Shown here piece by piece: positions 2,537 to 23,313 of a stretch of DNA of 26,699 nucleotides; the first letter of the stretch is position 1; the number at the start of each line of letters is the position of its first letter. The position numbers and the translations under genes are program-made. The DNA is from a virus, in IMG/VR virus record IMGVR_UViG_3300017987_000313, positions 1-26,699 of that record; one strand, 5' to 3'. The notes under the pieces were generated by a model, which was not told where the DNA came from, did no database searches, and was given only the letters and a program-made list of their open reading frames with translations.

Positions 2537-3607
2537 TTAGTTGAACATTGAGTTCAATTTTGCTCTAGTTTTGGGACCAACTTTACGTCCCTGTAATGCA
2601 TTCAGTTCTTCGTCTGAAGCTACCTGATACTTCCTCTGGAACGCCAGAACCGCTTTTGCTGTGATTGTACCATAATATCCTGTCGCTGGCACATTCACAG
2701 GAAACAGTTCCTCGTACATTAAAGCTCTCTGTAAATAAGAAACTTCTAAATTATTCATTCCGAAGATTAAATCTTTTTTCCATTGATGGGTAGGTTTTGG
2801 AATTTCACTTACTTCCTCTTTCTCTCTCCATGTATTCTTTAAATCTTTCAGGAATCCCCAAGCCCTTATTGGCTGGTCTTCAGTAATAATTCCCTGTCCA
2901 TCAAAACCCCAATCATATCCCCAGCTGTTATCAAAAAAGATAGCTCTCTTTCCTTTCCAAAGTCCATAATCAACCCCCGTCACCAAATGTCCGTAAGTTC
3001 CATCATCCCTGTTAGTAACCTCTGCGTTTGTCCAATCTCCCCTGCTGAATCGGCAAGCCAATGACACTCCCCCTACTTCCCTGATAGCATTAGCTATCAA
3101 GTCAAAATTAGCATCCTTTGATTGGGCATACCCTCCCGCCTTTCCTACTAAAGCCACCTGCCTGTCTATACTTTTTCTGTCCGAGTCATCATTCATCTTT
3201 TCCTCTGTCATGTCCTGTGAAGGCATTAATTGTTCTAAAGTTACTCCTTTCCGATATGCAATATCTAACGCATCCTGTTGCCACATTCCCTTAATTCCCT
3301 GATTAGCCCTCTGGGAGTAAATGTCCCTTGCTGAATAGTGTACAAATTTTCCTTCCTCTTTAACATTTGAAATCCCCAAGAGCTTTGAAACGGTCTGGGC
3401 AACGCATGACCCTGACCCATCTTGTTCAAAAATAGGATATTTCTTCCATTGGTCGGGGTCTTTGCCTGACCAAACAAGCGGCTGGTCGGCTAAAATTTCC
3501 TTAGCTTCGTAGTCCTCCTCCTTTTTCTCTGGTGGTCTCTTATCTCGAATAAGCCCTGTTCCAGAGGGTTTGTAATACTTACTGAATTTTTTAAAAAAAT
3601 TAAACAT
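2537..3607 (-). CDS. papain-like (C1) peptidase with C-terminal peptidoglycan-binding domain
   Basis: The product is 356 aa from the ATG at 3607. A longer frame to 3754 is rejected because it would run through the tRNA-Cys and tRNA-Gln genes. The catalytic domain (about 45-260) shows the papain signature: EQDGSGSCVAQ with Cys68, GHLVTGVDYG with His207, and FFDNSWGYDWG with Asn227. The C-terminal part (about 285-356) reads NNLEVSYLQRALM...GYYGTITAKAVLAFQRKYQV, a standard PG_binding_1 three-helix domain. There is no signal peptide. It probably cleaves peptide cross-links of the host wall, acting with the holin and transglycosylase next door as a second endolysin. A virion-associated wall hydrolase is the alternative. 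No clear Shine-Dalgarno site precedes the start. Confidence 0.8.
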   Translation of the reverse strand: MFNFFKKFSKYYKPSGTGLIRDKRPPEKKEEDYEAKEILADQPLVWSGKDPDQWKKYPIFEQDGSGSCVAQTVSKLLGISNVKEEGKFVHYSARDIYSQRANQGIKGMWQQDALDIAYRKGVTLEQLMPSQDMTEEKMNDDSDRKSIDRQVALVGKAGGYAQSKDANFDLIANAIREVGGVSLACRFSRGDWTNAEVTNRDDGTYGHLVTGVDYGLWKGKRAIFFDNSWGYDWGFDGQGIITEDQPIRAWGFLKDLKNTWREKEEVSEIPKPTHQWKKDLIFGMNNLEVSYLQRALMYEELFPVNVPATGYYGTITAKAVLAFQRKYQVASDEELNALQGRKVGPKTRAKLNSMFN

Positions 3608-3614
3608 ATGTTTG

Positions 3615-3690
3615 AGATATGGGTGAGATTTGAACTCACGTAAACGGGTTTGCAATCCGTTGCCTTCTAACCAGACTTGGCTACCATATC
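3615..3690 (-). tRNA. tRNA-Cys(GCA)
   Basis: Acceptor GATATGG pairs with CCATATC. The anticodon loop is TTGCAAA-like with GCA between ACGGA/TCCGT stem halves. D-loop GG and T-loop TTCAAAT are canonical. Discriminator U73 is as expected for Cys. No CCA is encoded; CA follows position 73. It is the most 3' gene of the array. Confidence 0.93.
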
Positions 3691-3695
3691 TTATG

Positions 3696-3769
3696 TTCCA
3701 GAGGGTGGATTCGAACCACCAGATACAAGGTTCAAAGCCTTGCGACTTTACCATTTTGTCTACTCTGGA
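3696..3769 (-). tRNA. tRNA-Gln(TTG)
   Basis: Acceptor TCCAGAG/CTCTGGA, anticodon arm CAAGG-CTTTGAA-CCTTG giving TTG (codon CAA). T-loop TTCGAAT, D-loop GG, A73. U1-A72 is typical for glutamine. CA follows the discriminator. Confidence 0.92.
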
Positions 3770-3775
3770 ATATTG

Positions 3776-3847
3776 CTCTACCGAGAGGACTCGAACCTCT
3801 AACCCTTCCCTTAACAGGGGACAGCTCTACCATTGAGCTACGGTAGA
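3776..3847 (-). tRNA. tRNA-Asn(GTT)
   Basis: Acceptor TCTACCG/CGGTAGA, anticodon loop CTGTTAA (GTT; codons AAU/AAC). T-loop TTCGAGT, D-loop GG. G73 is the expected Asn discriminator. CA follows. Confidence 0.93.
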
Positions 3848-3850
3848 ATC

Positions 3851-3869
3851 TAAAAACTAGAGTCAAGAA
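3851..3869. repeat. left copy of 19-bp inverted repeat flanking the 3887-4321 gene
   Basis: TAAAAACTAGAGTCAAGAA is the reverse complement, with one mismatch (18/19), of the sequence at 4335-4353. The two copies bracket a single gene inside the tRNA array, defining a 503-bp unit. Confidence 0.75.
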
Positions 3870-3886
3870 AAATTAGTTTATTTTAC

Positions 3887-4321
3887 TTATTTATCCTCCT
3901 CATATTCAGAGTTTTTCACAACCTTTACAAATTCATACTTGAGAATCCCATTCTTAATATCGTTCCAAGTTTCATTATTACATTCTCCATCCGGCAAGTC
4001 ATTTCCCCTTGTCCACTCTTCTCCAGCTCTTGGTTTTCGGTTTTGGACATAGGCACCAAGATAACCTTTAGATTTTCCATTCTTTGGTTTGATGACATGA
4101 ATGGGGTAATAGTAATTCTTAGTGTATAGTCTAACTACAATTCTTTTTTCATCAAGAGAATCTTTATAGTCTGATATATACACATATTTTTCAATTTGTC
4201 TATAGGGAACTATCTGTATAAGCCATCCAACCAATTCTGGAAATCCTTTTAGCAATTCCAAGTTATATTTTAATTTTCTCTTAGATTTTATTTTTTCTTT
4301 GTTCAACGGTGTTTCGTTCAT
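3887..4321 (-). CDS. hypothetical protein, 144 aa, flanked by inverted repeats
   Basis: I do not recognise this protein. It has a very basic N-terminus (NKEKIKSKRKLKYN), a hydrophobic stretch GFPELVGWLIQIVPY, and a beta-rich centre with tyrosines (VVRLYTKNYYYPIHVIKPK). The C-terminus ends acidic. No catalytic motif is visible. It stands alone between tRNA-Asn and a hairpin-rich spacer, and a 19-bp near-perfect inverted repeat begins 17 bases after its stop and ends 14 bases before its start. This suggests an inserted cassette, although no transposase motif is present. Start ATG at 4321; no good Shine-Dalgarno site. Confidence 0.7.
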   Translation of the reverse strand: MNETPLNKEKIKSKRKLKYNLELLKGFPELVGWLIQIVPYRQIEKYVYISDYKDSLDEKRIVVRLYTKNYYYPIHVIKPKNGKSKGYLGAYVQNRKPRAGEEWTRGNDLPDGECNNETWNDIKNGILKYEFVKVVKNSEYEEDK

Positions 4322-4334
4322 AATTTTTATACCG

Positions 4335-4353
4335 TTCTTGACTCTAGATTTTA
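4335..4353. repeat. right copy of 19-bp inverted repeat
   Basis: TTCTTGACTCTAGATTTTA pairs with the copy at 3851-3869 (18/19). The embedded TTGACT also resembles a -35 box. Confidence 0.75.
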
Positions 4354-4370
4354 AAGTCCAAAATAATTTC

Positions 4371-4545
4371 CTGAGAGGTGGAGAAGGGAAAACTAAAACT
4401 ATAACTAAAAAAATATAAAACCTTTCTCCACCTCCTAGGAAACTATTAATTTCCTAGGTAAAAGAAAACCTTAAACAATAAATTGTATGAAGTTATAGTA
4501 AGGTATTTTCCTAGAAAATACCAATTGCCCTATTGGTTGGCAACC
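4371..4545. other. hairpin-rich spacer, possible structured RNA
   Basis: No gene is visible between 4322 and 4563. The stretch holds successive perfect hairpins. Stem 1 is GAGGTGGAGAA 4375-4385 with TTCTCCACCTC 4424-4434, around an A-rich loop. Stem 2 is CCTAGGAAA 4434-4442 with TTTCCTAGG 4450-4458. Stem 3 is GGTATTTTC 4502-4510 with GAAAATACC 4514-4522. Stem 4 is TTGCC 4525-4529 with GGCAA 4539-4543. None is followed by a convincing T-tract. It may be an RNA expressed with the tRNA operon on the minus strand, or from a plus-strand promoter-like TTGACT-18-AATAAT at 4338-4367. Confidence 0.45.
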
Positions 4546-4563
4546 TCCTACAACTTATCTTGT

Positions 4564-4634
4564 TGGCTTGATAGGACTTGCACCTATACTCTTTCCCATA
4601 TCAGAGGAAGGCTTTACTATTTAAGCTACAAGCC
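4564..4634 (-). tRNA. tRNA-Ile(GAT), A18/G55 type
   Basis: Acceptor GGCTTGT/TCAAGCC (last pair mismatched). Anticodon arm TTCCT-CTGATAT-GGGAA gives GAT (AUU/AUC). The D-loop is AAATAGTA (A18G19 instead of GG) and the T-loop is TGCAAGT (G55 instead of U55). A73; next bases ACA, not CCA. Its 5' end overlaps the stop of the 4626-4898 gene. Confidence 0.87.
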
Positions 4635-4898
4635 AAAATTATTTTTCTTTATTTCTTTATATTCTTCTTCTGTACATTCATACTCTATATAATATCCTTC
4701 TTCATCTCCTTTCAATATTCCCTTGTCCACTAGACCTTTCATCTTGTTCAAAAAAGATATAAATTCTCTACAATTCGCATTTTTATCAATATCTTCAATA
4801 CATTTTTTGTCTTTACATTTAATATTATCCGGCCAATCTTTAATCTCTTGGCATAATTTATTAATGTATTTATTTGAAAATGTTGTTTTAATTTTCAT
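4626..4898 (-). CDS. hypothetical protein, 90 aa
   Basis: I do not recognise this protein. It is rich in Lys, Glu and Asn with four Cys (LCQEIKDW, IKCKDKKCIED, NANCREF) and one later Cys (YECTEEEY). The C-terminal part looks like an alternating strand/helix (GYYIEYECTEEEYKEIKKNN). The start is ATG 4898, 8 bases after the 3' end of tRNA-Thr. The stop TAG lies inside the first bases of tRNA-Ile, so gene and tRNA overlap by nine bases. The protein-like composition and correct spacing between tRNAs support a real gene, but no function can be given. Confidence 0.6.
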   Translation of the reverse strand: MKIKTTFSNKYINKLCQEIKDWPDNIKCKDKKCIEDIDKNANCREFISFLNKMKGLVDKGILKGDEEGYYIEYECTEEEYKEIKKNNFGL

Positions 4899-4905
4899 AT
4901 TTTTG

Positions 4906-4980
4906 AGCCAGCAAGAGGATTTGAACCCCTAACCTACTATTTACAAGATAGTAGCTCTACCAGACTTGAGCTATACTGGC
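4906..4980 (-). tRNA. tRNA-Thr(TGT)
   Basis: Acceptor GCCAGTA/TGCTGGC. Anticodon arm ACTAT-CTTGTAA-ATAGT gives TGT (codons ACN). T-loop TTCAAAT, D-loop GG. The discriminator is U, unusual for Thr (commonly A). CA follows. Confidence 0.9.
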
Positions 4981-4987
4981 CAAATTG

Positions 4988-5058
4988 TGGTAACTCTTAG
5001 AATTGCACTAAGAACTCCGGCTTATGAGACCGATGAGGTACTGTTCCTCTAAGTTACC
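4988..5058 (-). tRNA. tRNA-Met(CAT), elongator-like, A18/G55 type
   Basis: Acceptor GGTAACT/AGTTACC (G1-C72 pair, so not a bacterial initiator). Anticodon arm TCGGT-CTCATAA-GCCGG gives CAT, and the stem lacks the initiator GGG/CCC run. D-loop AACAGTA has A18G19; T-loop TGCAATT has G55. A73, CA follows. An Ile2 (lysidine) identity is less likely because a tRNA-Ile(TAT) is also encoded. Confidence 0.88.
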
Positions 5059-5060
5059 AG

Positions 5061-5134
5061 CAGGAGCTGAAGGGCTCGAACCTCCATTATTGGTTTTGGA
5101 GACCAATGTTTTAAGCCAGTTAAACTAAACTCCC
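5061..5134 (-). tRNA. tRNA-Trp(CCA)
   Basis: Acceptor GGGAGTT/AGCTCCT with a terminal G·U pair. Anticodon arm TTGGT-CTCCAAA-ACCAA gives CCA (UGG). T-loop TTCGAGC. G73 is as expected for Trp. The C34 anticodon reads only UGG, consistent with UGA being a stop. Confidence 0.9.
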
Positions 5135-5138
5135 ATAG

Positions 5139-5215
5139 TGAGCAGAAAATGAGTATCTACCCACTTCCGCTCAACTATCTTTTATCAGTCAAACGAATAA
5201 AAGATTGAGGATAGA
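5139..5215 (-). other. two-hairpin spacer between tRNA-Trp and tRNA-Gly
   Basis: The bases 5135-5255 hold no tRNA or gene that I can fold. On the minus strand there is a long imperfect hairpin with ends TGAGC/GCTCA (5139-5173), about 15 pairs with one bulge, and a second hairpin ATCTTTTAT/ATAAAAGAT (5177-5185/5198-5206) enclosed by CTATC/GATAG. It could be a tRNA-precursor processing site or a small RNA. Confidence 0.4.
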
Positions 5216-5255
5216 ACTTGTTAGCACTATATAGTTTTAAAGTTCCACATCCCTG

Positions 5256-5327
5256 AGTGCCTAATGAGACTTGAACTCACATCATCTCCTTGGAAGGGAG
5301 AGGTCCTGCCGATTAAACGATAGGCAC
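5256..5327 (-). tRNA. tRNA-Gly(TCC)
   Basis: Acceptor GTGCCTA/TAGGCAC. Anticodon arm TCTCC-CTTCCAA-GGAGA gives TCC (GGN). T-loop TTCAAGT, D-loop GG, U73 as in bacterial tRNA-Gly. CA follows. Confidence 0.93.
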
Positions 5328-5333
5328 TTATTG

Positions 5334-5407
5334 CGGGACTCACGGGATTTGAACCCGTAATTACTCCGTGACAGGGAGCCGTGATGACCAGGTTTCACCA
5401 GAATCCC
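5334..5407 (-). tRNA. tRNA-Asp(GTC)
   Basis: Acceptor GGGATTC/GAGTCCC. D-stem GTGA/TCAC. Anticodon arm GCTCC-CTGTCAC-GGAGT gives GTC (GAU/GAC). T-loop TTCAAAT. G73 is as expected for Asp. CA follows. Its first 13 bases overlap the 3' end of the YdcF-like gene. Confidence 0.92.
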
Positions 5408-5820
5408 AAATAATTTTTAATTTTCAAGTATATACTCGCTATAATGTTCCATATTTTGAACACAAGTTCATTTCTGGTCCACCATTGTTTAGATTTAGGA
5501 TTATAAGAGAAACTTCCCTTAACTCCCCTTGAAATATTTATTCCTAGGTAGTTTGCCGTATCCCAAACCCTTTTCAAGTGGTCAGCATGGGCTACTAAAA
5601 CAATTTCCTCTTTGGAATTTATCCACTTACTTGCTTGGGACAATACCTCTACTGTGTCTAGATACTTACCCTTATCTCTATGTTCGCTAATTACTGAACA
5701 CTTGTCAATATACTTTGCAACTTCTTTTTGGGCAATGATTATTCCACCTTCTTTTTTTGCAGCCCTTGCTATTTCCTTATTAGGATAACCTGTTCCAAAT
5801 GATAATGCAATAACTATCAT
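5395..5820 (-). CDS. YdcF/DUF218-like protein, 141 aa
   Basis: The layout resembles the small DUF218 (YdcF/SanA/ElyC-like) fold. An N-terminal strand MIVIALSFGTG comes first. A central strand-turn-helix EEIVLVAHADHLKRVWDTANYLGI fits the family's 'hhlVs...H..Ra...a..lGi' site with the conserved His. A C-terminal segment ELVFKIWNIIASIYLKIKNYLG resembles the usual end of YdcF proteins. Family members are tied to envelope metabolism, but the biochemical role is poorly defined. The N-terminal DUF218 part is shorter than usual. The start is ATG 5820, eight bases after the 3' end of tRNA-Arg. The TGA stop at 5395-5397 falls inside tRNA-Asp, so transcription is probably shared with the tRNA operon and processing of the tRNA would trim this mRNA. 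Confidence 0.6.
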   Translation of the reverse strand: MIVIALSFGTGYPNKEIARAAKKEGGIIIAQKEVAKYIDKCSVISEHRDKGKYLDTVEVLSQASKWINSKEEIVLVAHADHLKRVWDTANYLGINISRGVKGSFSYNPKSKQWWTRNELVFKIWNIIASIYLKIKNYLGFW

Positions 5821-5827
5821 ATTTTTG

Positions 5828-5901
5828 TAGGGCTAGTGAGACTTGAACTCACAGTCTTGACTTTAGAAGAGTCCTGCTCTGTCCAATTGAGCTACAGCCC
5901 T
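5828..5901 (-). tRNA. tRNA-Arg(TCT)
   Basis: Acceptor AGGGCTG/TAGCCCT. D-stem GCTC/GAGC with GG loop. Anticodon loop CTTCTAA gives TCT (AGA/AGG). T-loop TTCAAGT. A73, CA follows. Confidence 0.92.
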
Positions 5902-5907
5902 GCTATG

Positions 5908-5979
5908 TGCCTTCAGTTGGAATTGAACCAACACCCCCTTACTTTTCAGATAAGTGCTCTACCCTTGAGCTACGAAGGC
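5908..5979 (-). tRNA. tRNA-Phe(GAA)
   Basis: Acceptor GCCTTCG/TGAAGGC. Anticodon arm CTTAT-CTGAAAA-GTAAG gives GAA (UUU/UUC). T-loop TTCAATT, D-loop GG. A73, CA follows. Confidence 0.93.
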
Positions 5980-5985
5980 TTTTTG

Positions 5986-6059
5986 TGGACCTGGCGAGAT
6001 TCGAACTCGCAACCTGCTGAGTGCAAAACAGCTGCTCTAGCCGTTAGAGCTACAAGCCC
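5986..6059 (-). tRNA. tRNA-Ala(TGC)
   Basis: Acceptor GGGCTTG/CAGGTCC carries the G3·U70 wobble pair that identifies tRNA-Ala. Anticodon loop TTTGCAC gives TGC (GCN). T-loop TTCGAAT. A73, CA follows. Confidence 0.93.
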
Positions 6060-6064
6060 TTTTG

Positions 6065-6136
6065 TGGGGATACAAAGAATCGAACTCTGATTGATTCCTT
6101 AAAAGGGAACTGTTCTTCCAATTGAACTATATCCCC
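6065..6136 (-). tRNA. tRNA-Lys(TTT)
   Basis: Acceptor GGGGATA/TATCCCC. Anticodon arm GTTCC-CTTTTAA-GGAAT gives TTT (AAA, and AAG by wobble). T-loop TTCGATT, D-loop GG. A73, CA follows. Confidence 0.93.
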
Positions 6137-6227
6137 ATTAGAAGCTGTTGACATTCTCAACAACTCTTAGAAAGGATGTGCAAGATATGACATTAGTCAT
6201 ACTCCCTGAATAAAATGTACATTTGTG
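6137..6227 (-). other. spacer with small hairpins between tRNA-Lys and tRNA-Val
   Basis: No gene or tRNA is visible. TATGAC (6186-6191) and GTCATA (6196-6201) form a tetraloop hairpin, and GTTGA/TCAAC-type complementarity lies at about 6145-6165. The ATGAC/GTCAT hairpin and an adjacent GGGAGT on the minus strand resemble elements in the 10930-11330 spacer. Confidence 0.35.
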
Positions 6228-6298
6228 TAGCCACGACAGGAATTGCACCCGTATTTACTGTATGTAAAACAGCGGTTCTGCTATTGAACTACATGGCT
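6228..6298 (-). tRNA. tRNA-Val(TAC), A18/G55 type
   Basis: Acceptor AGCCATG/CGTGGCT. Anticodon arm GCTGT-TTTACAT-ACAGT gives TAC (GUN). D-loop AATAGCA has A18G19 and T-loop TGCAATT has G55. A73, CA follows. Confidence 0.9.
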
Positions 6299-6304
6299 GT
6301 CTTG

Positions 6305-6376
6305 TAGGGCTAGAAGGATTTGAACCCTCATTTATTGCTTCGAAGGCAATTACTCTATCCATTGAGCTATAACCCT
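6305..6376 (-). tRNA. tRNA-Arg(TCG)
   Basis: Acceptor AGGGTTA/TAGCCCT. Anticodon arm ATTGC-CTTCGAA-GCAAT gives TCG (CGN). This replaces the usual bacterial ACG (inosine) tRNA. T-loop TTCAAAT. A73, CA follows. Confidence 0.93.
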
Positions 6377-6382
6377 ATTTTG

Positions 6383-6454
6383 TTGCAGGATTAGGATTCG
6401 AACCTAAATTTTGAAAGTCAGAGTCTCATGTCCTACCAATTAGACCACCCTGCA
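6383..6454 (-). tRNA. tRNA-Gln(CTG)
   Basis: Acceptor TGCAGGG/TCCTGCA (U1-A72, typical Gln). Anticodon arm TGAGA-CTCTGAC-TTTCA gives CTG (CAG). T-loop TTCGAAT, D-loop GG. A73, CA follows. Confidence 0.91.
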
Positions 6455-6462
6455 ATTTTTTG

Positions 6463-6534
6463 TTGGGACAATAGGATTTGCACCTATACTCAATGGTATA
6501 TAAGACCATTGCTTTTCTATTAAGCTATGTCCCA
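6463..6534 (-). tRNA. tRNA-Ile(TAT), A18/G55 type
   Basis: Acceptor TGGGACA/TGTCCCA. Anticodon arm ATGGT-CTTATAT-ACCAT gives TAT, reading AUA directly. D-loop AATAGAA has A18G19 and T-loop TGCAAAT has G55. Most bacteria instead read AUA with a lysidine-modified CAT tRNA. A73, CA follows. Confidence 0.9.
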
Positions 6535-6540
6535 ATTTTG

Positions 6541-6615
6541 TGAGAGTGGAAGGAATTGAACCTACACGCTTCTGATTAAGAGTCAGGTGCTCTGGCCTAA
6601 TTGAGCTACACTCTC
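6541..6615 (-). tRNA. tRNA-Lys(CTT)
   Basis: Acceptor GAGAGTG/CACTCTC. Anticodon loop CTCTTAA on a CTGA/TCAG stem gives CTT (AAG). T-loop TTCAATT with one mismatch in the T-stem. D-loop GG. A73, CA follows. Confidence 0.91.
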
Positions 6616-6656
6616 ATAAATGAGATAAAACATAAAAAAATTATTTTATCTCTTAT

Positions 6657-6893
6657 TTAAAAATTTACCCTCGGCTCACCCTGTCGGTTTTCCCATTCAA
6701 TTGCTATGAAATCTGGTCTAATCCAGTATGCTTTTCCTTTTTTATCTATAACTCTTTGTCCGTGGTCTCTCCTGGCACAGACAGCTAATGGTTCTTCTAT
6801 CTTATACCGTACTCCGTTTGGAAAAACATATATTCTGTACTTTTCACTCGAAATGTCTTTAAATTTTAGTCCAGGATTATCTGTAAATTTCAT
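6657..6893 (-). CDS. hypothetical protein, 78 aa
   Basis: I do not recognise this protein. It looks like a small beta-rich protein (YRIYVFPNGVRYKI, DKKGKAYWIRPDFIAIEW) with one Cys and no membrane segment. The start is set at ATG 6893, not the in-frame GTG at 6902, because a Shine-Dalgarno-like GAGGGG overlaps that GTG and is correctly placed for the ATG. This ribosome-binding site lies in the last codons of the radical SAM gene, whose TAA ends two bases before the ATG. The two are therefore almost certainly co-translated and may work together. Confidence 0.7.
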   Translation of the reverse strand: MKFTDNPGLKFKDISSEKYRIYVFPNGVRYKIEEPLAVCARRDHGQRVIDKKGKAYWIRPDFIAIEWENRQGEPRVNF

Positions 6894-6894
6894 A

Positions 6895-7620
6895 TTATCC
6901 ACCCCTCATTCTTTCTAATGTTACAAAGTATTCTCTGATACAATTTCCACACCTGGCACACTTGGTAGTGCCTAATTCTCCTTCAATTTTACCACAACTG
7001 TAGACCCATTGATTGTATTTGTACGGCTTCATTACTTTCTCCCACGCCTTGGTAGTGATTGCGTAATATGAATTCAAGGTTCTTTTCCTAAAAATATAAC
7101 TGTTTTCATGTCCCTTCTTAATCGGAGTTGTAAAATAAGCCATAAATGTCAGGACTATTGGCACTTTTCTTTTACTATAATATCTTATAGCCGGCTCTAC
7201 AACATCAATTAAATTCCAAGTGTTCGTCCTTACACGGACAAACATAAGATTCTTGGGAATTTCTTCCAACTTATAAAAATTAACATCAGTCATCTTGCCG
7301 GGGTTTATCGTTAAAACTACCGGTGCATCAAATTCTTCAAGGTCTACAGCTATTGCTGTGTTGTAAAACTTCATTTTATAACCCTTGGTTACCGCTATCA
7401 CATAATTCCTATGAATATTACTATCATTTCCGTCATTAACTCTGACTATTCTGTTTTCTGTATCTTCCGGCATATTGGGTAGATTCTCATCTAATGGTTC
7501 CAAATAGGAACGTCCTGATTGAAAGAAACAATCGTTACAGTTATTTGGGCATCTGCCTTTTTGGGGAATACAACAAAAAATTCCACTTCCTTTCGTTTTT
7601 GGGTTCTCTTTATATCCCAT
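6895..7620 (-). CDS. radical SAM family protein, 241 aa
   Basis: Residues 24-31 read CPNNCNDC, the CxxxCxxC triad (C24, C28, C31) that binds the 4Fe-4S cluster of radical SAM enzymes, preceded by two further Cys (16, 17). Strand-like segments follow as in a partial TIM barrel: NYVIAVTKG, APVVLTINPG, NLMFVRVRTNTW, VPIVLTFMAYF. The C-terminus has four more Cys (YSCGKIEG, KCARCGNC), suggesting an auxiliary Fe-S site as in SPASM/Twitch types. It would cleave S-adenosylmethionine to a 5'-deoxyadenosyl radical; the substrate is unknown. It has a clear Shine-Dalgarno GAGGTG seven bases before ATG 7620. It sits between tRNA-His and tRNA-Lys with a small partner gene downstream, so a tRNA or peptide substrate is conceivable but unproven. 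Confidence 0.75.
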   Translation of the reverse strand: MGYKENPKTKGSGIFCCIPQKGRCPNNCNDCFFQSGRSYLEPLDENLPNMPEDTENRIVRVNDGNDSNIHRNYVIAVTKGYKMKFYNTAIAVDLEEFDAPVVLTINPGKMTDVNFYKLEEIPKNLMFVRVRTNTWNLIDVVEPAIRYYSKRKVPIVLTFMAYFTTPIKKGHENSYIFRKRTLNSYYAITTKAWEKVMKPYKYNQWVYSCGKIEGELGTTKCARCGNCIREYFVTLERMRGG

Positions 7621-7712
7621 TTAAATCACCTCATCTTTTTTTGTTAAAGTTAGAGAATATTACATCAACTAAAGATAATAATTTTTATTACTTTTAGTTT
7701 AATATCCTCTGG

Positions 7713-7785
7713 GGTGACTGGAGGAGCTCGCATCCTCATCATCGGTGCCACAAACCGAAGCTTTAACTATTTAAGCTACAGCCAC
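7713..7785 (-). tRNA. tRNA-His(GTG), A18/G55 type
   Basis: Acceptor GTGGCTG/CAGTCAC. Anticodon arm TCGGT-TTGTGGC-ACCGA gives GTG. D-loop AAATAGTTA has A18G19 and T-loop TGCGAGC has G55. C73 is as in bacterial tRNA-His, and this is the only tRNA here followed by an encoded CCA (7712-7710). The base before G1 is T, so the usual G-1 is not encoded. Confidence 0.88.
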
Positions 7786-7797
7786 ACCGGAAGATAT

Positions 7798-7864
7798 TAA
7801 ATGTTTGTATGGGGAGAGAGGAAATCTATTAAGCTCGCTTCTCTCCCCATTACACAGAACACCG
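7798..7864 (-). other. GGGGAGAG hairpin element in tRNA array
   Basis: ATGGGGAGAGA (7809-7819) pairs with TCTCTCCCCAT (7840-7850), an 11-bp perfect stem over a ~20-base loop. Flanks (minus strand GTGTTCTG before, ACATTTAAT after) are shared with the hairpin at 11082-11152. There is no T-tract, so it is not an intrinsic terminator. Confidence 0.5.
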
Positions 7865-7875
7865 TCATATTTTTG

Positions 7876-7960
7876 CGGAAGAAACAGGACTCGAACCTGT
7901 AACGCTTTTTACACGCCATGGTTTAGTAAACCACTTCCTTGCCAATTTGGATATTCTTCC
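7876..7960 (-). tRNA. tRNA-Ser(ACT)
   Basis: Acceptor GGAAGAA/TTCTTCC. Class-II variable arm of 17 bases with a GCGT/GCGT wobble stem. G73 as in serine tRNAs. Anticodon arm GTGGT-TTACTAA-ACCAT places ACT at 34-36 (codon AGU), where bacteria normally have GCT. T-loop TTCGAGT, D-loop GG. CA follows. Confidence 0.82.
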
Positions 7961-8019
7961 TTATGAAAAATTAATTCTCTCATATCCCCATAATTCAATG
8001 AATAACATTCACCCTGTTG

Positions 8020-8104
8020 CGGAAGATGAGGGATTCGAACCCCCACGACTATTACATCTCCTGTTTTCAAGACAGGTGCCTTACCGGTTCGGCGACAATC
8101 TTCC
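8020..8104 (-). tRNA. tRNA-Ser(TGA)
   Basis: Acceptor GGAAGAT/ATCTTCC. D-stem GCC/GGC. Anticodon arm CCTGT-CTTGAAA-ACAGG gives TGA (UCN). Long variable arm and G73 as for serine. T-loop TTCGAAT. CA follows. Confidence 0.93.
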
Positions 8105-8112
8105 ACTTCTTG

Positions 8113-8199
8113 TGCACAGGGTAGGATTTGAACCTACAATGTTTACCACGAGGGTGCCAGTTTTACAGACTGGTGCATTCTCCATTCTGCCACCTGTAC
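8113..8199 (-). tRNA. tRNA-Tyr(GTA)
   Basis: Acceptor GTACAGG/CCTGTGC. Anticodon arm CCAGT-CTGTAAA-ACTGG gives GTA. A long variable arm (ACC..GGT stem), as in bacterial tRNA-Tyr. T-loop TTCAAAT. A73, CA follows. Confidence 0.93.
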
Positions 8200-8206
8200 A
8201 TATTTG

Positions 8207-8280
8207 TCAGGATAATTGGATTCGAACCAATACTATATACGCCCAAGGTATATGTGCTGACCGTTAAACACCATATCCTG
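8207..8280 (-). tRNA. tRNA-Pro(TGG)
   Basis: Acceptor CAGGATA/TATCCTG with the C1-G72 pair typical of Pro. Anticodon arm ATATAC-CTTGGGC-GTATAT gives TGG (CCN). T-loop TTCGAAT. A73, CA follows. Confidence 0.93.
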
Positions 8281-8285
8281 TTTTG

Positions 8286-8359
8286 TGGCCTCACGGAGAC
8301 TCGAACTCCGATTACCAGAGTGAAAGCCTAGCGTCCTAGCCAAATTAGACGATGAGGCC
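8286..8359 (-). tRNA. tRNA-Glu(TTC)
   Basis: Acceptor GGCCTCA/TGAGGCC. Anticodon arm CTAGG-CTTTCAC-TCTGG gives TTC (GAA). D-arm TCGTCTAAT resembles bacterial tRNA-Glu. T-loop TTCGAGT. A73, CA follows. Confidence 0.92.
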
Positions 8360-8364
8360 AATAT

Positions 8365-8577
8365 TTATAATCTGTAAATTATTCTTCCTTTTTCTTCATA
8401 CGGACCAATCTCCACTAACACTTTATCTCCTGGCAAGGTTTTAATCTGGTTGTGCCTCATTTTTCCAGAGAGATAGGCCCTAATAGTCTTTCCGTTCTTT
8501 AGTTCTACCTCAAAATCAATTCCTTTAAGGTGTTTAGTAACAAAGCCTTTCTTTTTATCTTTTTTTTGTTTACTCAT
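8365..8577 (-). CDS. infA: translation initiation factor IF-1 homologue, 70 aa
   Basis: The product is close to the usual 70-72 aa of bacterial IF-1 and has its single S1-like OB-fold. After a basic N-terminal tail (SKQKKDKKKG), residues 20-70 follow the IF-1 pattern: DFEVELKNGK, then AYLSGKMRHNQIKTLPGDKV, then VEIGPYEEKGRI. The SGKMR, GDKV and KGRI blocks are diagnostic. In the family, IF-1 binds the 30S A-site and cooperates with IF-2 and IF-3 in start-codon selection. The ATG at 8577 is chosen because upstream in-frame codons lie inside tRNA-Glu(CTC), whose 3' end is seven bases away. The gap to tRNA-Glu(TTC) is five bases, so the gene is embedded in the tRNA transcript. One residue is missing in the loop before KGRI compared with E. 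coli. A phage-borne IF-1 could bias initiation towards phage mRNAs, which mostly lack strong Shine-Dalgarno sites. Confidence 0.9.
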   Translation of the reverse strand: MSKQKKDKKKGFVTKHLKGIDFEVELKNGKTIRAYLSGKMRHNQIKTLPGDKVLVEIGPYEEKGRIIYRL

Positions 8578-8583
8578 TTCTTG

Positions 8584-8655
8584 TAGCCCCAAAGGGAATT
8601 GAACCCTCATCTGTTGGCTGAGAACCAACTATCCTTTCCTTTAGACGATGAGGCT
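8584..8655 (-). tRNA. tRNA-Glu(CTC)
   Basis: Acceptor AGCCTCA/TGGGGCT. Anticodon arm GTTGG-TTCTCAG-CCAAC gives CTC (GAG). D-arm TCGTCTAAAGG is Glu-like. T-loop TTCAATT. A73, CA follows. Confidence 0.91.
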
Positions 8656-8658
8656 ATG

Positions 8659-8732
8659 TGCCGCTAGAAGGAGTTGAACCTTCAACAACTAATTTTTGAG
8701 ATTAGCACGTCTGCCAATTGCGTCACAGCGGC
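8659..8732 (-). tRNA. tRNA-Leu(CAA), short variable loop
   Basis: Acceptor GCCGCTG/TAGCGGC. Anticodon arm CTAAT-CTCAAAA-ATTAG gives CAA (UUG). D-arm ACGCAATTGGCAGACGT is Leu-like, but the variable region is only five bases (TTGTT) instead of a long class-II arm. T-loop TTCAACT. A73, CA follows. Confidence 0.88.
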
Positions 8733-8740
8733 ATATTATG

Positions 8741-8822
8741 TGCTCCCTACTGGATTCGAACCAGTAAGCTTCTCAGCAAGTGGTTTTAAGCCACTTGTGT
8801 TTTCCTATTTCACCAAAGGAGC
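8741..8822 (-). tRNA. tRNA-Leu(TAA)
   Basis: Acceptor GCTCCTT/AGGGAGC. Anticodon arm AGTGG-CTTAAAA-CCACT gives TAA (UUA). A class-II variable arm (GCT-GAGA-AGC). T-loop TTCGAAT. A73, CA follows. Confidence 0.93.
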
Positions 8823-8828
8823 TTTTTG

Positions 8829-8902
8829 TAGCCGACCAGGGACTCGAACCCTGAGAACTTAGTTTCTAAAACTAATATGTTTGCCAATTACATCAGTCGG
8901 CT
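8829..8902 (-). tRNA. tRNA-Leu(TAG), short variable loop
   Basis: Acceptor AGCCGAC/GTCGGCT. Anticodon arm TTAGT-TTTAGAA-ACTAA gives TAG (CUN). The variable region is five bases (GTTCT), class I. D-loop GG, T-loop TTCGAGT, A73, CA follows. First tRNA of the array, 30 bases downstream of the -10 box of a strong promoter. Confidence 0.9.
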
Positions 8903-11330: not shown

Positions 11331-11657
11331 TTAAACTTCAAAAGGATAGTCTGGGTGTTTAATACCACCCTCCAAGTAGATAAATTTACAACCGCAGATT
11401 CTTCTTACTTCTTCCCTTAATTTCCTATAAGGGCAAATAGTTGCCACAATTACGTCAACCCCCTGTTTATCAATCACTTTGGCTAATCTCGCTATCCTTA
11501 AATTATTTTCCCAACGGTCTTCTTTTGAAAAACCCAAGTCATTGTTTATAGCAGACCTCATATCGTCACCATCTAAGACAACCTCATTAGTCCTTATCTT
11601 GCGAGCCAATGTTGATTTACCCGATTTGCTCTGTCCATATATCCAAGTTATTGCCAT
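11331..11657 (-). CDS. adenylylsulfate-kinase-like P-loop protein (short), 108 aa
   Basis: Residues 8-16 (GQSKSGKST) form a Walker A P-loop. They are followed by LDGDDMRSAINNDLGFSKED (28-47), which closely follows the APS kinase (CysC) substrate-binding segment 'LDGD..R..l..dLgFs..dR.eN'. A helix-strand then ends VIVATICPYRKLREEVR, matching the 'iSPyr..R...R' block. The protein stops at about 108 aa, whereas CysC is near 180-200 aa, so the C-terminal third is missing. APS kinase phosphorylates adenylylsulfate, but phage relatives often act as kinases on other small molecules or nucleic-acid ends, so the substrate is open. It overlaps the upstream HxGH nucleotidyltransferase by 10 bases, suggesting a functional pair. 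Confidence 0.75.
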   Translation of the reverse strand: MAITWIYGQSKSGKSTLARKIRTNEVVLDGDDMRSAINNDLGFSKEDRWENNLRIARLAKVIDKQGVDVIVATICPYRKLREEVRRICGCKFIYLEGGIKHPDYPFEV

Positions 11658-12001
11658 AATTCTTTTTGTTTATTTTTTTCTCTTACTTTTGTAGCTGATA
11701 TTTTTTCAAGGTCAGGAGATAATTTAATTTCCTTTATCTCGTAACCAACCTTTCTCCCGTAGCATACAGCCTTAATGTTAGGGATTTTAATTATTTTTAC
11801 TTTGTCCCCCCACTTCTTAAATGCTTCTTTTAATGCTCGCTTTCGCTGTTTTACCGAATAAGGATTATTCTTATCTTTTTTTGTATCTCTTATAGCTATC
11901 AACACAGGATTACCTTTCTTCAATTCAGACTCTATTAGGGCAATGTGTCCTGCGTGAGGAGGTAGGCATTGCCATCTGCCGATAAATAATGAATATTTCA
12001 T
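11648..12001 (-). CDS. HxGH nucleotidyltransferase-like protein, 117 aa
   Basis: Residues 5-19 (LFIGRWQCLPPHAGH) carry the HAGH form of the HxGH nucleotide-binding motif after a first beta-strand. Near the C-terminus KISATKVRE (100-108) is the ISxTxxR motif. Together these define the cytidylyl/adenylyltransferase superfamily (NadM, glycerol-3-phosphate cytidylyltransferase, ATP sulfurylase core). It transfers a nucleotide from NTP to a phosphorylated acceptor. The 'GRWQ' start is closest in look to NMN adenylyltransferase (GRFQP). Length fits a minimal domain. The 10-base overlap with the APS-kinase-like gene invites comparison with bifunctional PAPS synthases, but a surface or nucleotide modification is just as possible. 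Confidence 0.75.
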   Translation of the reverse strand: MKYSLFIGRWQCLPPHAGHIALIESELKKGNPVLIAIRDTKKDKNNPYSVKQRKRALKEAFKKWGDKVKIIKIPNIKAVCYGRKVGYEIKEIKLSPDLEKISATKVREKNKQKELWQ

Positions 12002-19392: not shown

Positions 19393-21768
19393 TTAGTAAG
19401 CTCCTAATTTTGCCCACCTTTGTTTTTGAGAAATAGCTTTAGATACAGCATCAGCAATCAGCTGAATATCCTCATCATTCCTAACAACAGGATTATTTAT
19501 ATTTATTATTGTGTCCCCCCATGATTTTTCTCTATTTTCTCTCGCTGGGATAACAGCTTCCCCTTTATGTAGTTGATACCAATCAGTTCTCGGAACAAAA
19601 TCAGTTCCTTGCTGATAGGAATAAACAGGAGCTGTGCTCCCTGCATAATCAATAGGAAGCGTTCCAATACCACCCGGTCCTGGAGTTGTAGTAGCCCTAT
19701 GAATTTCTTGCAACATCCTTGCTTCTCTCTCTCCTGGTTTTTCCCAAGGAAGGGCTCCCATCTCTCTGATTGTAGGTATCCATCCCATACCTGGAAGACT
19801 TCTTATTACAGTAATTTGTCTATTTACTAAAGCAATGAATTGATTCAATTTATCTCTTATCCATATAATTGTGTCCTGAATTGGGTCTTTTATTGCTAAC
19901 CAAAGACCAGAGAACACAGTCTTAATTGCCTTATATATCAAACTAAATACATCAAATATTACTTGAGCAACAGCAGCAAATCCCTCCCCTACTTTCTTAA
20001 GGGCTTCTATTCTCCATTCATTATCCCAAAGTAAATCCCATATTTTTTTGATTTTTCTTCCTAAATCTATAAAGAAATTTTTCCACGTAACTGGGTCAAG
20101 CATTGAATCCCAAAAGGCTTGCCAAAACTTATCTCCAGCTTGTCCCCATTCCTGTTCTATTTTTTCTCTCTCTTCTTTCATCATTTCAGCCATCAATCCC
20201 AACCTATACTCAAGCTCTGTTTGGGCGGTATCTGTATCTTTCTCCTGAGATTTCTCATAATCATCATTCCATCTTCTCATAAATAGTGCAAAATCCTCTT
20301 CTTCTCTAGCAAGTCTTTTTCTTAAATCTTTTACTCTCTGTTTGTCTGCCCAAAGTCCCTTGGAAACTTCTTCTTCCATTTGTTCTTTAATATCATCAAC
20401 AGTTCTCTGGTGTTTTCTCTTCCTGTCCTCCAACCTCCTCATAGCAGCCTCGTCAGGAGCATCATCTCCCACCTCTTCATTTACACCATGTATCCTTTGC
20501 TTCAACTCCAATAATTCGTCATTCAACTTGCTTGTTACGTCCCTGTGCCTCTCTGCCCTACCGGATAATTTGGAAAAAGCATAGACAGCAATACCAATTG
20601 CCGCACCAATCGCTCCCAAAATAGCTATTAACTTTCCAGCAGTCAATCCGGACACAACCAGCATTGCACTAAGCGAACCCGATGCAACTGCCATTGATTT
20701 GATACCCTTAACAACACTCATGGCAACCCTGTATACAATTGTAGCCGTTCCCCCTAATGTTGTCATGGCAGTTATCATTCCTAAACTTCCAGTAGTTGCT
20801 GATAACAAAGCCCCACTTAAATCACCGAATGCACCAACAAGCTGGGTAGCTTTTTGGGTTATTTCTGTCAAAATATCAGCTACAGAGCCAATAATTGGTG
20901 CCAACCCCTCTCCAAAAGCCCGTTTAAGCTCCCAGACAGCCGTAGAGAGGCGATTTAGAGTAGCGGTTAATGTATCTGACGCAGTTTCATGTAAACCAGC
21001 CATAGCAACGCTCTCCTGCATCATAACATTATATACTCCTTCCGCTTCCTCTAAATCATTTACTTGGCTTTCCTTTTTACCTAAGGTCCTAGCGGCTTGT
21101 GCTGTTCCTTTATCAAAAATACCCTGAATCAGTAATGCGTCTGCTAACCGTTCTTTATGAGACCTGATACCACGTGAAGACATTAACACAGCTTCACCAA
21201 AATTATATTGAGCTTCCCTAGCAACAACAGAACGGTCAAGCATCGCCCAAAGCATTTTTTCTACCTTGTCCAATCCCAATCCAGTAGCCATTAAGTTCCT
21301 TGTCGCTTCTGCTGCTTCGTTGAATCTTATCAATCCCGTTTCTGTCAATTCCTGGGTAATCCTAGTTGCCTCATCTCCACTTTCCCCATACCGAATAGCT
21401 TCTACCTGCAACCCCAAAATAGCATTCTCAGCTTCAGCCGCAGCACCAACAAATTCTTTCATAGCATTTACAAGGGTTGCAGTCGCAGCACCAGCAACCA
21501 CACTCAGGTAAAAGAATTCATGAGAAAGCCTAGCTAAGAAATTTTCCATATCAGTAGTAGAATTTTCCGTAGCATTTCTCATCTTTCTGACTTCACCAGA
21601 AATACTGTCCAATCCCTTGGTCATTTTTTTAGTCTGGTCTTTCATTGATTTCCCCATACCCTCAGCACTTTTTGCAATGCTTTGAATATTTTTGGAAACC
21701 TTATTAAATTCCTTCTCGCCAATAAATTGGCTTGCTATTATAATTTTTAATTCGTTACTATCTGCCAT
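19393..21768 (-). CDS. tail tape measure protein, 791 aa
   Basis: The N-terminal 80 residues are a charged coil (FNKVSKNIQSIAKSAEGMGK). A helical domain follows with ATATLVNAMKEFVGAAAEAE and the phage_TMP-type block EEATRNLMATGLGLDKVEKM. Hydrophobic, Gly/Ala-rich segments lie at about 320-400 (SLGMITAMTTLGG; GKLIAILGAIGAAIGIAVYAF). A long charged coil spans about 410-560, and the C-terminus reads GTDFVPRTDWYQLHKGEAVIPA, a motif common at the end of tape measure proteins. It sets tail length and may form the DNA channel at infection. At 791 aa it would suggest a tail of roughly 110-120 nm by the usual 1.5 Å per residue rule (inference). It overlaps the tail-chaperone frame by 11 bases. Confidence 0.85.
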   Translation of the reverse strand: MADSNELKIIIASQFIGEKEFNKVSKNIQSIAKSAEGMGKSMKDQTKKMTKGLDSISGEVRKMRNATENSTTDMENFLARLSHEFFYLSVVAGAATATLVNAMKEFVGAAAEAENAILGLQVEAIRYGESGDEATRITQELTETGLIRFNEAAEATRNLMATGLGLDKVEKMLWAMLDRSVVAREAQYNFGEAVLMSSRGIRSHKERLADALLIQGIFDKGTAQAARTLGKKESQVNDLEEAEGVYNVMMQESVAMAGLHETASDTLTATLNRLSTAVWELKRAFGEGLAPIIGSVADILTEITQKATQLVGAFGDLSGALLSATTGSLGMITAMTTLGGTATIVYRVAMSVVKGIKSMAVASGSLSAMLVVSGLTAGKLIAILGAIGAAIGIAVYAFSKLSGRAERHRDVTSKLNDELLELKQRIHGVNEEVGDDAPDEAAMRRLEDRKRKHQRTVDDIKEQMEEEVSKGLWADKQRVKDLRKRLAREEEDFALFMRRWNDDYEKSQEKDTDTAQTELEYRLGLMAEMMKEEREKIEQEWGQAGDKFWQAFWDSMLDPVTWKNFFIDLGRKIKKIWDLLWDNEWRIEALKKVGEGFAAVAQVIFDVFSLIYKAIKTVFSGLWLAIKDPIQDTIIWIRDKLNQFIALVNRQITVIRSLPGMGWIPTIREMGALPWEKPGEREARMLQEIHRATTTPGPGGIGTLPIDYAGSTAPVYSYQQGTDFVPRTDWYQLHKGEAVIPARENREKSWGDTIININNPVVRNDEDIQLIADAVSKAISQKQRWAKLGAY

Positions 21769-21958
21769 TAGAAGCTCTTCTTTTTGCTTTATTTATTTCT
21801 CTTTGTTGGAATTGCCCTTCAATATTTAGGGCATTGATATAAAAATCAATCTTATGAGCGGGCTGTGAATAAAGTTGCTCTGGAGTCCAACCAAACTTTT
21901 CAAGCAACTTCATCTCGATATACTCAAAAGGCACTCCACGCCCACTCTGGAGTGCCAC
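21758..21958 (-). CDS. tail assembly chaperone T-domain (made as gpGT by -1 frameshift)
   Basis: This frame (from GTG 21958, 66 aa) is in the -1 frame of the 21961-22284 gene and probably is not started independently. The upstream gene ends over a slippery A9C run, and after a -1 shift reading continues LKKLVVALQSGRGVPFEY without a stop. The fused product would be about 170 aa. The T part contains EYIEMKLLEKFGWTPEQLY and a basic tail, as in lambda gpT-like extensions that bridge the tape measure and tail tube subunits. It overlaps the tape measure start by 11 bases. Confidence 0.75.
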   Translation of the reverse strand: MALQSGRGVPFEYIEMKLLEKFGWTPEQLYSQPAHKIDFYINALNIEGQFQQREINKAKRRASNGR

Positions 21959-21982
21959 AACTAGCTTTTTAAGTTTTTTTTT
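21930..21982 (-). promoter_or_regulatory. programmed -1 ribosomal frameshift site with downstream stem-loop
   Basis: On the minus strand a run of nine A followed by C (21982-21973) contains the slippery heptamer AAAAAAC in the correct phase (A AAA AAC). After a 16-base spacer that includes the 0-frame TAG, a perfect 9-bp stem GGCACTCCA/TGGAGTGCC (21956-21948 with 21938-21930, 9-base loop) follows and could stall ribosomes. Confidence 0.85.
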
Positions 21983-22284
21983 CCCTCTTTCTTGGTTTCA
22001 TCAAAAATCTTTCCAACCTCGTCAAAGACATACATTAAATCTTTTCTTGGAAACATTTCCAAGTTTTTTTCAGTAATTTCTAATACATTTCCTTCGCTAT
22101 CTGTCAAATTCCATTCCTTGGCTAGCACCAGAAAAGTCTCTATACCTTTCTGATAATTATCCTTCACCTTTTCAAGCTTTCTCATGTCCCGATAAAGGAA
22201 ATCAGTATAGAGAGTTATTTCTCCTCCCTCAAAAGAAAGAAGTTTTATTGTTTTTGTTTCACGAACATCCTTAAGTTCTGGCAT
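21961..22284 (-). CDS. tail assembly chaperone, G part, 107 aa
   Basis: A small acidic/helical protein between the major tail tube and tape measure genes, the invariant position of gpG-type chaperones. It begins KTIKLLSFEGGEITLYTDFL and continues with helices (DMRKLEKVKDNYQKGIETFL; PRKDLMYVFDEVGKIFDETK). The C-terminal codons (KKEGKKNLKS) lie on the slippery sequence. In the 0 frame it ends at TAG 21961; a minority of ribosomes should shift -1 to give the longer gpGT. It would hold the tape measure protein soluble and recruit tail tube subunits. Not recognised by sequence beyond the position and frameshift signature. Confidence 0.8.
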   Translation of the reverse strand: MPELKDVRETKTIKLLSFEGGEITLYTDFLYRDMRKLEKVKDNYQKGIETFLVLAKEWNLTDSEGNVLEITEKNLEMFPRKDLMYVFDEVGKIFDETKKEGKKNLKS

Positions 22285-22332: not shown

Positions 22333-23313
22333 TTAATATGAAGCAGTTTCATTTGTCACAGTTACTTGGAGACTGTATCCTTCTGAATCGTCATAGTCTA
22401 TCACAAATTCCGGATTTTCTGTTACAAATCCAGCAGGAGCCGTATCAACTGACCTCTCTGTAATGTGAAAAGCAGGAATTTTAATCAAGATTTCTTCTGT
22501 TTCTGCATTTCCAATACTATCTCCCTGGAAACTTACTACCATAGCTCTTTGTGTTTGGTTCTCATGAGCACTCCTTTCTGTTGTATCTTCAAAGAATAGA
22601 GTGTAAGAACCGTTTGCATCAAATTCTCCCAGAGCAATATGGTCTGGGCTTGAACTTCCGCTCAAGTAGTGAGCCTCTGCGTTGTTGTTAATTGTCAAAG
22701 TGAACTCAGACAATTCTTTAGAGTTAGTATCACTATTGTAATTTGATTCAGCTGCAGTCAGGTTAGCACCAAAGTAAATTTTAGCATCCTTAAATGCCAA
22801 AACTCTTTCTTCGGTAATAGATTTAGTTCCAGTTCCACTTGATGGTGCTTTAGAAATAATAGATGCTGTAGTTTCTACCCATCCATCACTAAAGTTTATT
22901 TCCAAACTATCAACTGTTCCATAGGTATATTCCCTCGTTTCAACTGTGTCATTAAAGTTAAGAGTAATAGTCTTGGGAGGATTACCTGCTTTTCTGGTAA
23001 TAACATGCTCATAAACAGAACTTTCCCCCGAAGCTGTGTCAGATGACACCGAACCCAATGCAGGAACCAAAAGATAGGGAGCGTTTTCTACATCCATCAA
23101 AATAGTAATATCTCCTTCTCCCCTAGTTCTGGCTGCAACGGAACCCCAAGCTCTTTCCCTGATACCCTTAGCTGCTTCATCATCCAAAACCTCAACTACA
23201 TTCCGTAGTGTACAATCGGTGTAAGGAAGATACTTCACTGGGTCTAATCCTGTACCTGGAGTAGATTCAACAGCTACTCCAAGCGACCCTTTTCGTCCAA
23301 TATCTACTGCCAT
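22333..23313 (-). CDS. major tail tube protein, 326 aa
   Basis: N-terminal segment GRKGSLGVAVESTPGTGLDP with KYLPYTDCTLRN and later GEGDITILMDVENAPYLLVPALG are typical of siphophage tail tube proteins ('a.e...gt...p...l......'). Most of the sequence is predicted beta (TITLNFNDTVETREYTYGTV; NGSYTLFFEDTTE). It is followed by chaperone and tape measure genes, which fixes the role: hexameric rings stack to form the tail tube. The C-terminal ~90 residues may form a decorating domain. No ribosome-binding site beyond weak purines. Confidence 0.8.
   Translation of the reverse strand: MAVDIGRKGSLGVAVESTPGTGLDPVKYLPYTDCTLRNVVEVLDDEAAKGIRERAWGSVAARTRGEGDITILMDVENAPYLLVPALGSVSSDTASGESSVYEHVITRKAGNPPKTITLNFNDTVETREYTYGTVDSLEINFSDGWVETTASIISKAPSSGTGTKSITEERVLAFKDAKIYFGANLTAAESNYNSDTNSKELSEFTLTINNNAEAHYLSGSSSPDHIALGEFDANGSYTLFFEDTTERSAHENQTQRAMVVSFQGDSIGNAETEEILIKIPAFHITERSVDTAPAGFVTENPEFVIDYDDSEGYSLQVTVTNETASY

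Follow-up and report, generated by a model that had tools for sequence, protein, structure and literature searches.

Ribosomal slippage is the default for a tail assembly chaperone gene of the G/GT type, and the slip site of phage lambda is G_GGA_AAG. Switching between the short chaperone (G) and the fusion of G with the T part (GT) is standard among phages with long tails, and the portion of the literature covered here describes it as ribosomal. We analysed such a G/T locus in a virus record of 26,699 bases (IMG/VR record IMGVR_UViG_3300017987_000313; its whole length is called the window below), where the entire locus lies on the minus strand and a run of nine A's stands shortly before the G stop codon. 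The frame architecture of the locus and the way it recurs in distant relatives were observed directly, as was an excess of A9–A10 runs at the junction; the production of GT, its level and the machine that slips are inferred. As judged from the sequence, the locus very probably carries a programmed −1 frame switch giving G and GT. Ribosomal −1 slippage at three overlapping in-phase heptamers has a slightly better than even chance of being the main route in the window, which places the ribosome slightly ahead of RNA polymerase as the main agent there.

The window resembles lambda gpG/gpGT in gene order, in the −1 direction and in the short C-terminal T extension (PMC5009743), and a heptamer of the form G_GGA_AAN is also found inside its A run; unlike lambda, it has a nine-A run with three overlapping heptamers and a stem 16 nucleotides (nt) away. 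HK97-like tail assembly chaperone genes, likened here by description, also use a −1 switch, for which the cited account gives measured frameshifting of 6 and 7% in two genes (PMC3711429). A tblastn search with T against 50,697 phage records returned six records of three Bacillus phages, of which the three RefSeq versions bear the label tail assembly chaperone; in these three phages and in Bacillus phage vB_BpsS-36, T lies in the −1 frame at an in-phase A_AAA_AAG. The Andromedavirus phages Riggi, Finn and Blastoid share with the window a homologous T, the −1 overlap and the gene order, and vB_BpsS-36, which was found via a weak G match (E 0.1), shares the overlap and the gene order. Unlike the window, the Andromedavirus phages and vB_BpsS-36 have their in-phase A_AAA_AAG on A7 runs, not A9, and T is annotated there as a separate gene. 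Another kind of precedent is programmed transcriptional slippage on A9–A11 runs in Thermus dnaX, insertion sequence (IS) elements and Citrobacter tssM1, where a long A run likewise stands near a 0-frame stop or frame change and two product lengths arise (PMC1088944, PMC5009743, PMC4256274, as far as these describe the sites). Polymerase slippage in dnaX and tssM1 rests on experiments, whereas in the window it would be a possible reading of the sequence.

Architecture of the G/T locus and its recurrence

Two overlapping open reading frames (ORFs) sit between the major tail protein gene and the tape measure protein gene, which is the arrangement of a G/GT chaperone. The locus comprises the following features.

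22333..23313, minus strand: tail tube protein gene, upstream of G (PF18906, E=3e-17; phrog_290, E=5.8e-28)
21961..22284, minus strand: G ORF, predicted short tail assembly chaperone of 107 amino acids (aa) plus stop, between the tail tube gene and T/tape measure
21973..21985, minus strand: GGGAAAAAAAAAC, three overlapping in-phase heptamers G_GGA_AAA, A_AAA_AAA and A_AAA_AAC
21974..21982, minus strand: nine-A run, proposed slip site, the sole run of at least nine A's or nine T's in the 26,699-base window
21964..21970, minus strand: AAAAAGC (A_AAA_AGC), by the T alignment the degenerate counterpart of the relatives' second in-phase heptamer, 7 nt before the stem
21961..21963, minus strand: 0-frame stop TAG of G, 9 nt past the last heptamer
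21758..21997, minus strand: T part, an open −1 frame of 79 codons plus stop, overlapping the G end by 34 nt
19393..21768, minus strand: tape measure protein gene, downstream of T (phrog_1535, E=2.7e-15)

On the minus strand, the 3' end of G reads GAG GGA AAA AAA AAC TTA AAA AGC TAG. The −1 frame is open from 21997 to its stop at 21760–21758, and the product read through the junction in this frame is GKKKLKKLVVALQ. A first-pass annotation of this DNA had claimed an in-phase AAAAAAC with a nearby 0-frame stop and a −1 frame running on into the next ORF. Both are present, with AAAAAAC at 21979–21973 ahead of the TAG at 21963–21961 and the −1 frame open over the 79 codons listed above. Two heptamers that it had not mentioned, G_GGA_AAA (21985–21979) and A_AAA_AAA (21982–21976), both overlap AAAAAAC in phase, and the slippery sequence lies in phase within the G/T overlap. 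The T part matches a chaperone family, phrog_9001 (tail assembly chaperone, E=7.5e-5); the profile scans returned no named lambda-type family for the window G or T.

In the proposed mechanism, most translation would end at the TAG to give G, and a minority product would enter the −1 frame on the nine A's (GGGA9C) to give the G–T fusion. By analogy with lambda, G might bind the tape measure protein and T might recruit tail tube subunits. The switch itself would be slippage on the A run, in which the ribosome and RNA polymerase may both act; because both would yield the same protein, a junction peptide cannot separate ribosomal from transcriptional slippage.

Relatives were recovered by scanning first with the tail tube protein and alignments of it, then with the G alignment, and 28 distinct viral loci were kept, the window included (L numbers denote single loci). 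Copies or near-copies (L005/L026, L009/L031/L032, L015, L017, L025, L028–L030, L035, L041, L044), truncated loci (L008, L045) and L018/L019/L020 (24% tail tube identity, second ORF in +1 register) were excluded. L050 was kept among the 28 as a miss, and L014 and L034 were kept though they are without a canonical heptamer; the named Bacillus phages L021, L023 and L024 stand outside the 28. No relative was returned by viral-contig scans with the window G protein, the tape measure protein or a 1194-aa tail protein, nor by genome-contig scans with the tail tube alignments.

A −1 ORF of 46–96 aa overlaps the G end in 27 of the 28 loci (in L049 the contig ends before the ORF does), and 25 of the 28 have a canonical in-phase X_XXY_YYZ heptamer in the overlap. 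The later, separate scan contributed 15 junctions, 14 with a −1 ORF of at least 46 aa. The G proteins are very diverged: a 70% identity cut-off divides the 26 aligned loci into 25 clusters, and the median pairwise identity is 33%. At E 0.01, phrog_9046, a family of no stated function, is matched by eight of the 13 G proteins in the 13-locus alignment, and one G protein of the group matches phrog_313, Tail assembly chaperone, at E 0.0067. As the G proteins matching phrog_9046 precede T parts of the phrog_9001 kind, phrog_9046 is probably a G-type chaperone family. The lambda-like gpG/gpGT logic in the −1 direction, as proposed in the first-pass annotation, is supported by the gene order, the T profile match and the −1 ORF in 27 of the 28 loci.

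Several observations weigh against a programmed −1 switch common to these loci. The window G protein has no profile match at E 0.01 (best 0.1), and only some of the T parts match phrog_9001 (6 of 13 in the T alignment; 5 of the 10 scanned among the 15 later ones). The −1 ORF of L050 has 30 codons only, and 3 of the 28 loci (L014, L034 and L050) are without a canonical in-phase heptamer. Deeper in T, before an FGW-like core, a Shine-Dalgarno-like start is found in L012 (codons 37–39) and, weakly, in L014 (codon 27). The second ORF of the very distant L018–L020 overlaps the first in +1 register; it has 180 aa in L019 and in L020, whereas the L018 contig ends within it. The ORFs were called mechanically, and the locus statistics assume independence and take the overlap as singly coding.

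Run length and codon phase at the junction

The alternative that survives best is that host or phage RNA polymerase slips on the nine A's in part of the transcripts, adding one A or dropping two, so that normal translation of these mRNAs would give GT and no ribosome slip would be needed. We regard it as possible, somewhat short of an even chance. The window has the homopolymer associated with transcriptional slippage (about nine or more A/T, phase not fixed), and nine A's or T's are described as an efficient slippage length that is counterselected in the genes of many bacteria (PMC1088944, PMC5009743). In the 288 ORFs of the 28 loci (229,401 nt), runs of at least nine A's occur 20 times, 19 of them within the final 60 nt of G and one elsewhere, in L039, and T runs of this length are absent from the same ORFs. 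Over the entire coding strand of 14 loci (144 kb with the intergenic regions), two further such runs were counted. A9–A10 is carried by 19 of the 28 G ends, compared with 7.0 expected for A≥9 from the Lys-rich protein tails and the codon usage of each locus, and all 19 loci whose tail can hold A≥9 do so (Poisson-binomial 1.2e-10, with loci taken as independent and the second frame ignored). The pattern originated from the first 13 viral loci, nine of which have A≥9, and 10 of the 15 later junctions have it as well. The first-pass annotation had treated the nine-A run as a peculiarity; in the window it is the sole such run, and in the family A≥9 at the G end is the part that recurs.

The distribution of these runs over codon phases also speaks for the polymerase. 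A9–A10 runs start in each of the three phases (9, 5 and 5 loci), though shorter runs would supply an in-phase heptamer. Phase-3 runs of at least seven A's reach A≥9 at five of eight junction sites, two of which belong to the close relatives L040 and L043, as against 0 of 41 elsewhere. Expectations outside the G ends were obtained by synonymous shuffling of codons in 287 genes, G ends excluded. By phase, A6 is found at 1.13, 1.15 and 1.02 of expectation and A8 at 0.33, 0.29 and 0.49 (counts of 2, 2 and 9); A≥9 occurs once, where 19.6 would be expected. Thus A8 and longer runs are depleted, whereas A6 and in-phase A_AAA_AAG (26 against 26.1 expected) are not; in-phase A_AAA_AAC was seen 13 times against 18.5 expected and A_AAA_AAA 44 times against 91.4, but the latter is contained in long runs. 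Three consecutive lysines are written as nine A's in none of 30 cases outside the G ends, where 12.1 would be expected. Long-run loci are also mostly without unusual structure past the heptamers, 14 of 19 being outside the most stable 10% (median rank 0.42–0.49).

Overall, the A pattern tracks run length more than reading frame, as expected of RNA-polymerase slippage, and run length looks like the selected feature in this phage group. We had also considered the in-phase heptamers as the only selected feature, which the codon shuffle made doubtful.

Against polymerase slippage as the main route stand the loci without long runs that keep the −1 overlap: they have in-phase A7 (L006, L040, L043), A8 (L049), U_UUU_UUA (L007, L012) or, in the Bacillus phages, A_AAA_AAG. 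In five loci (L002, L003, L004, L013 and L022) the G stop is immediately preceded by a second short heptamer, also in phase, which would suit ribosomes only. A very stable stem follows the run in the window and in L003, and stems have no role in slippage by RNA polymerase. Hints of a ribosomal cost might be seen in the depletion outside the G ends of in-phase U_UUU_UUU (13 against 24.2 expected) and U_UUU_UUA (17 against 25.6), and in A7 runs at 0.81 of expectation in phase 3 compared with 1.19 in phase 1. The spelling AAA AAA AAG for three lysines is likewise absent from the 30 cases, and since it holds eight A's plus an in-phase heptamer, it does not discriminate between the two machines. 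Finally, replication slippage can explain the avoidance of long runs elsewhere, according to the account in PMC1088944; it would hardly explain the enrichment of A runs at this one place.

Transcriptional slippage has been suggested for a phage methyltransferase gene (PMC2853527), and for phage tail chaperones we found no report of it in the literature searched, which omits most subscription papers. Tentatively, a widespread group of tailed phages might make G and GT mainly via RNA-polymerase slippage on selected A9–A10 runs, and their cousins with shorter or other sites via structure-assisted ribosomal frameshifting. The same protein switch might then have shifted between transcription and translation in evolution, as reported for bacterial dnaX; this forms part of the same tentative proposal.

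The downstream stem and the remaining alternatives

Less probable, and in our judgement rather unlikely, is a textbook stem-stimulated ribosomal frameshift at the in-phase heptamers, for which a stem past the junction would be needed for efficiency. The candidate structure is the following.

21930..21956, minus strand: perfect stem of 9 base pairs (bp) with a 9-nt loop, 16 nt after AAAAAAC (pair probabilities 0.94–1.0, partition function)

Its arms are GGCACTCCA (21956–21948) and TGGAGTGCC (21938–21930). The strand contains 11 perfect stems of at least 9 bp with loops of 3–20 nt, compared with a mean of 2.4 in 10 Markov resamples, and 0.001–0.007 stems would be expected to start in a given 16-nt stretch, a stretch picked after the stem was seen; its position is therefore unlikely to be due to chance. 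The 60 nt past the heptamers are within the most stable 0.8–1.2% of all 60-nt segments of the strand. Measured against dinucleotide shuffles, a 76-nt stretch shows only moderate stability (z = −1.98), with 9 of the 200 shuffles equally stable. Together with the in-phase heptamers and the −1 position of T, such a stem would suit stimulated ribosomal frameshifting.

Among the relatives, a counterpart at the homologous place was found only in L003 among 12 loci inspected: a 9-bp stem 8 nt after the second heptamer A_AAA_AAG, with one compensatory pair judged by eye. The 60 nt past the heptamers of L003 are within the most stable 0.4–1.1%, and the window and L003 are the extremes of the set. L002 lacks a stem at this position, and folding of the nine other relatives showed none there. 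L010 (10-bp) and L006 (7-bp) have other stems, each starting 1–2 nt after the heptamer. More broadly, the 60 nt past the heptamers rank among the top 10% for stability within their locus at 9 of the 25 loci that have heptamers (binomial p 0.0005), namely at four of six without A≥9 and five of 19 with it (L040 and L043 being close relatives). This stability ranking made us raise our estimate for the stem-stimulated frameshift somewhat and lower that for transcriptional slippage a little.

The distance from the heptamers is a difficulty. The usual spacing between heptamer and structure is given as 5–9 nt (PMC5009743, PMC4066793), with a quoted range of 3–14 (PMC5009743), and the spacer in the window has 16 nt. 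The perfect 9-bp stem-loop reported by the first-pass annotation 16 bases downstream is thus real but outside the usual spacing. A lower helix, CUUAAAA/UUUUGAG, was considered and dropped, since with the heptamer excluded no base of that strand pairs above 0.20 in the partition function. Moreover, A_AAA_AAC is described as a heptamer of low efficiency in Escherichia coli, though it is likely used by some IS elements (PMC4066793). Of the "textbook" −1 frameshift proposed initially, the G/GT switch is well supported, and the two other props are weaker: the heptamer is weak in E. coli according to the same source, and the stem lies 16 nt away and is common to one relative only. The window stem may be the stimulator of a decayed second site, or may still act from 16 nt; it may aid ribosomes in the window, and it is not a recurring part of the family.

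Another alternative is a late switch, in which the P-site tRNA-Lys would slip at A_AAA_AGC, immediately ahead of the stop. This site has the usual spacing from the stem (7 nt) and is the counterpart of the second in-phase heptamer in L002, L003, L004 and L013. We nevertheless find it improbable, as a tRNA on AGC presumably cannot re-pair well on AAG and the upstream A9 run provides three full heptamers.

It is still less credible that T is made separately, either from the GTG at 21958 or by stop and restart after the TAG, with no fusion formed. The GTG is 2 nt past the G stop, but no Shine-Dalgarno-like 4-mer precedes it and the stem takes in its last base. The −1 frame offers a start by codon 15 in three of 13 loci (GTG in the window, ATG in L013, TTG in L021), the others having their first at codon 20 to 50; across codons 1–25 of this frame, no start codon with a Shine-Dalgarno-like 4-mer was found in the 13 loci (first five starts per locus). 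An assembly or sequencing error that splits one fused gene at the homopolymer can be practically dismissed: homopolymer indels are a common type of error, but this −1 split recurs across many separate records, including ones with T6 or A7 sites, and named Bacillus phages have it as well.

Neighbouring genes and implications

Other parts of the window contain several genes of separate interest. At 3614–8902 (minus strand), 28 tRNA genes lie within about 5.3 kb and jointly serve all 20 amino acids; tRNA-Lys(ttt), tRNA-Lys(ctt), tRNA-Asn(gtt) and tRNA-Ile(tat) are among them, and a homologue of translation initiation factor IF-1 is located within this array at 8365–8628 (minus strand; PF01176, E=3.2e-18). 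An APS-kinase-like gene (PF01583) adjoins a cytidylyltransferase-like gene (PF01467) at 11331–12001 (minus strand). A papain-family peptidase with a peptidoglycan-binding domain is encoded at 2537–3754 (minus strand), its called start overlapping tRNA genes. Between the tail tube gene and G, two relatives have another ORF, TnpB-like in L007 (6068–7243) and HNH-endonuclease-like in L011 (3528–4169), both judged by eye.

The G/GT trick itself is well known; in this phage group, run length looks like the selected feature of the junction. If run length is selected, chaperone frameshifts on long A runs may be partly transcriptional, which would change how the G:GT ratio is set and what frameshift predictors should seek. 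The A7, U_UUU_UUA and A9–A10 versions of one junction make the question of which machine slips directly testable.

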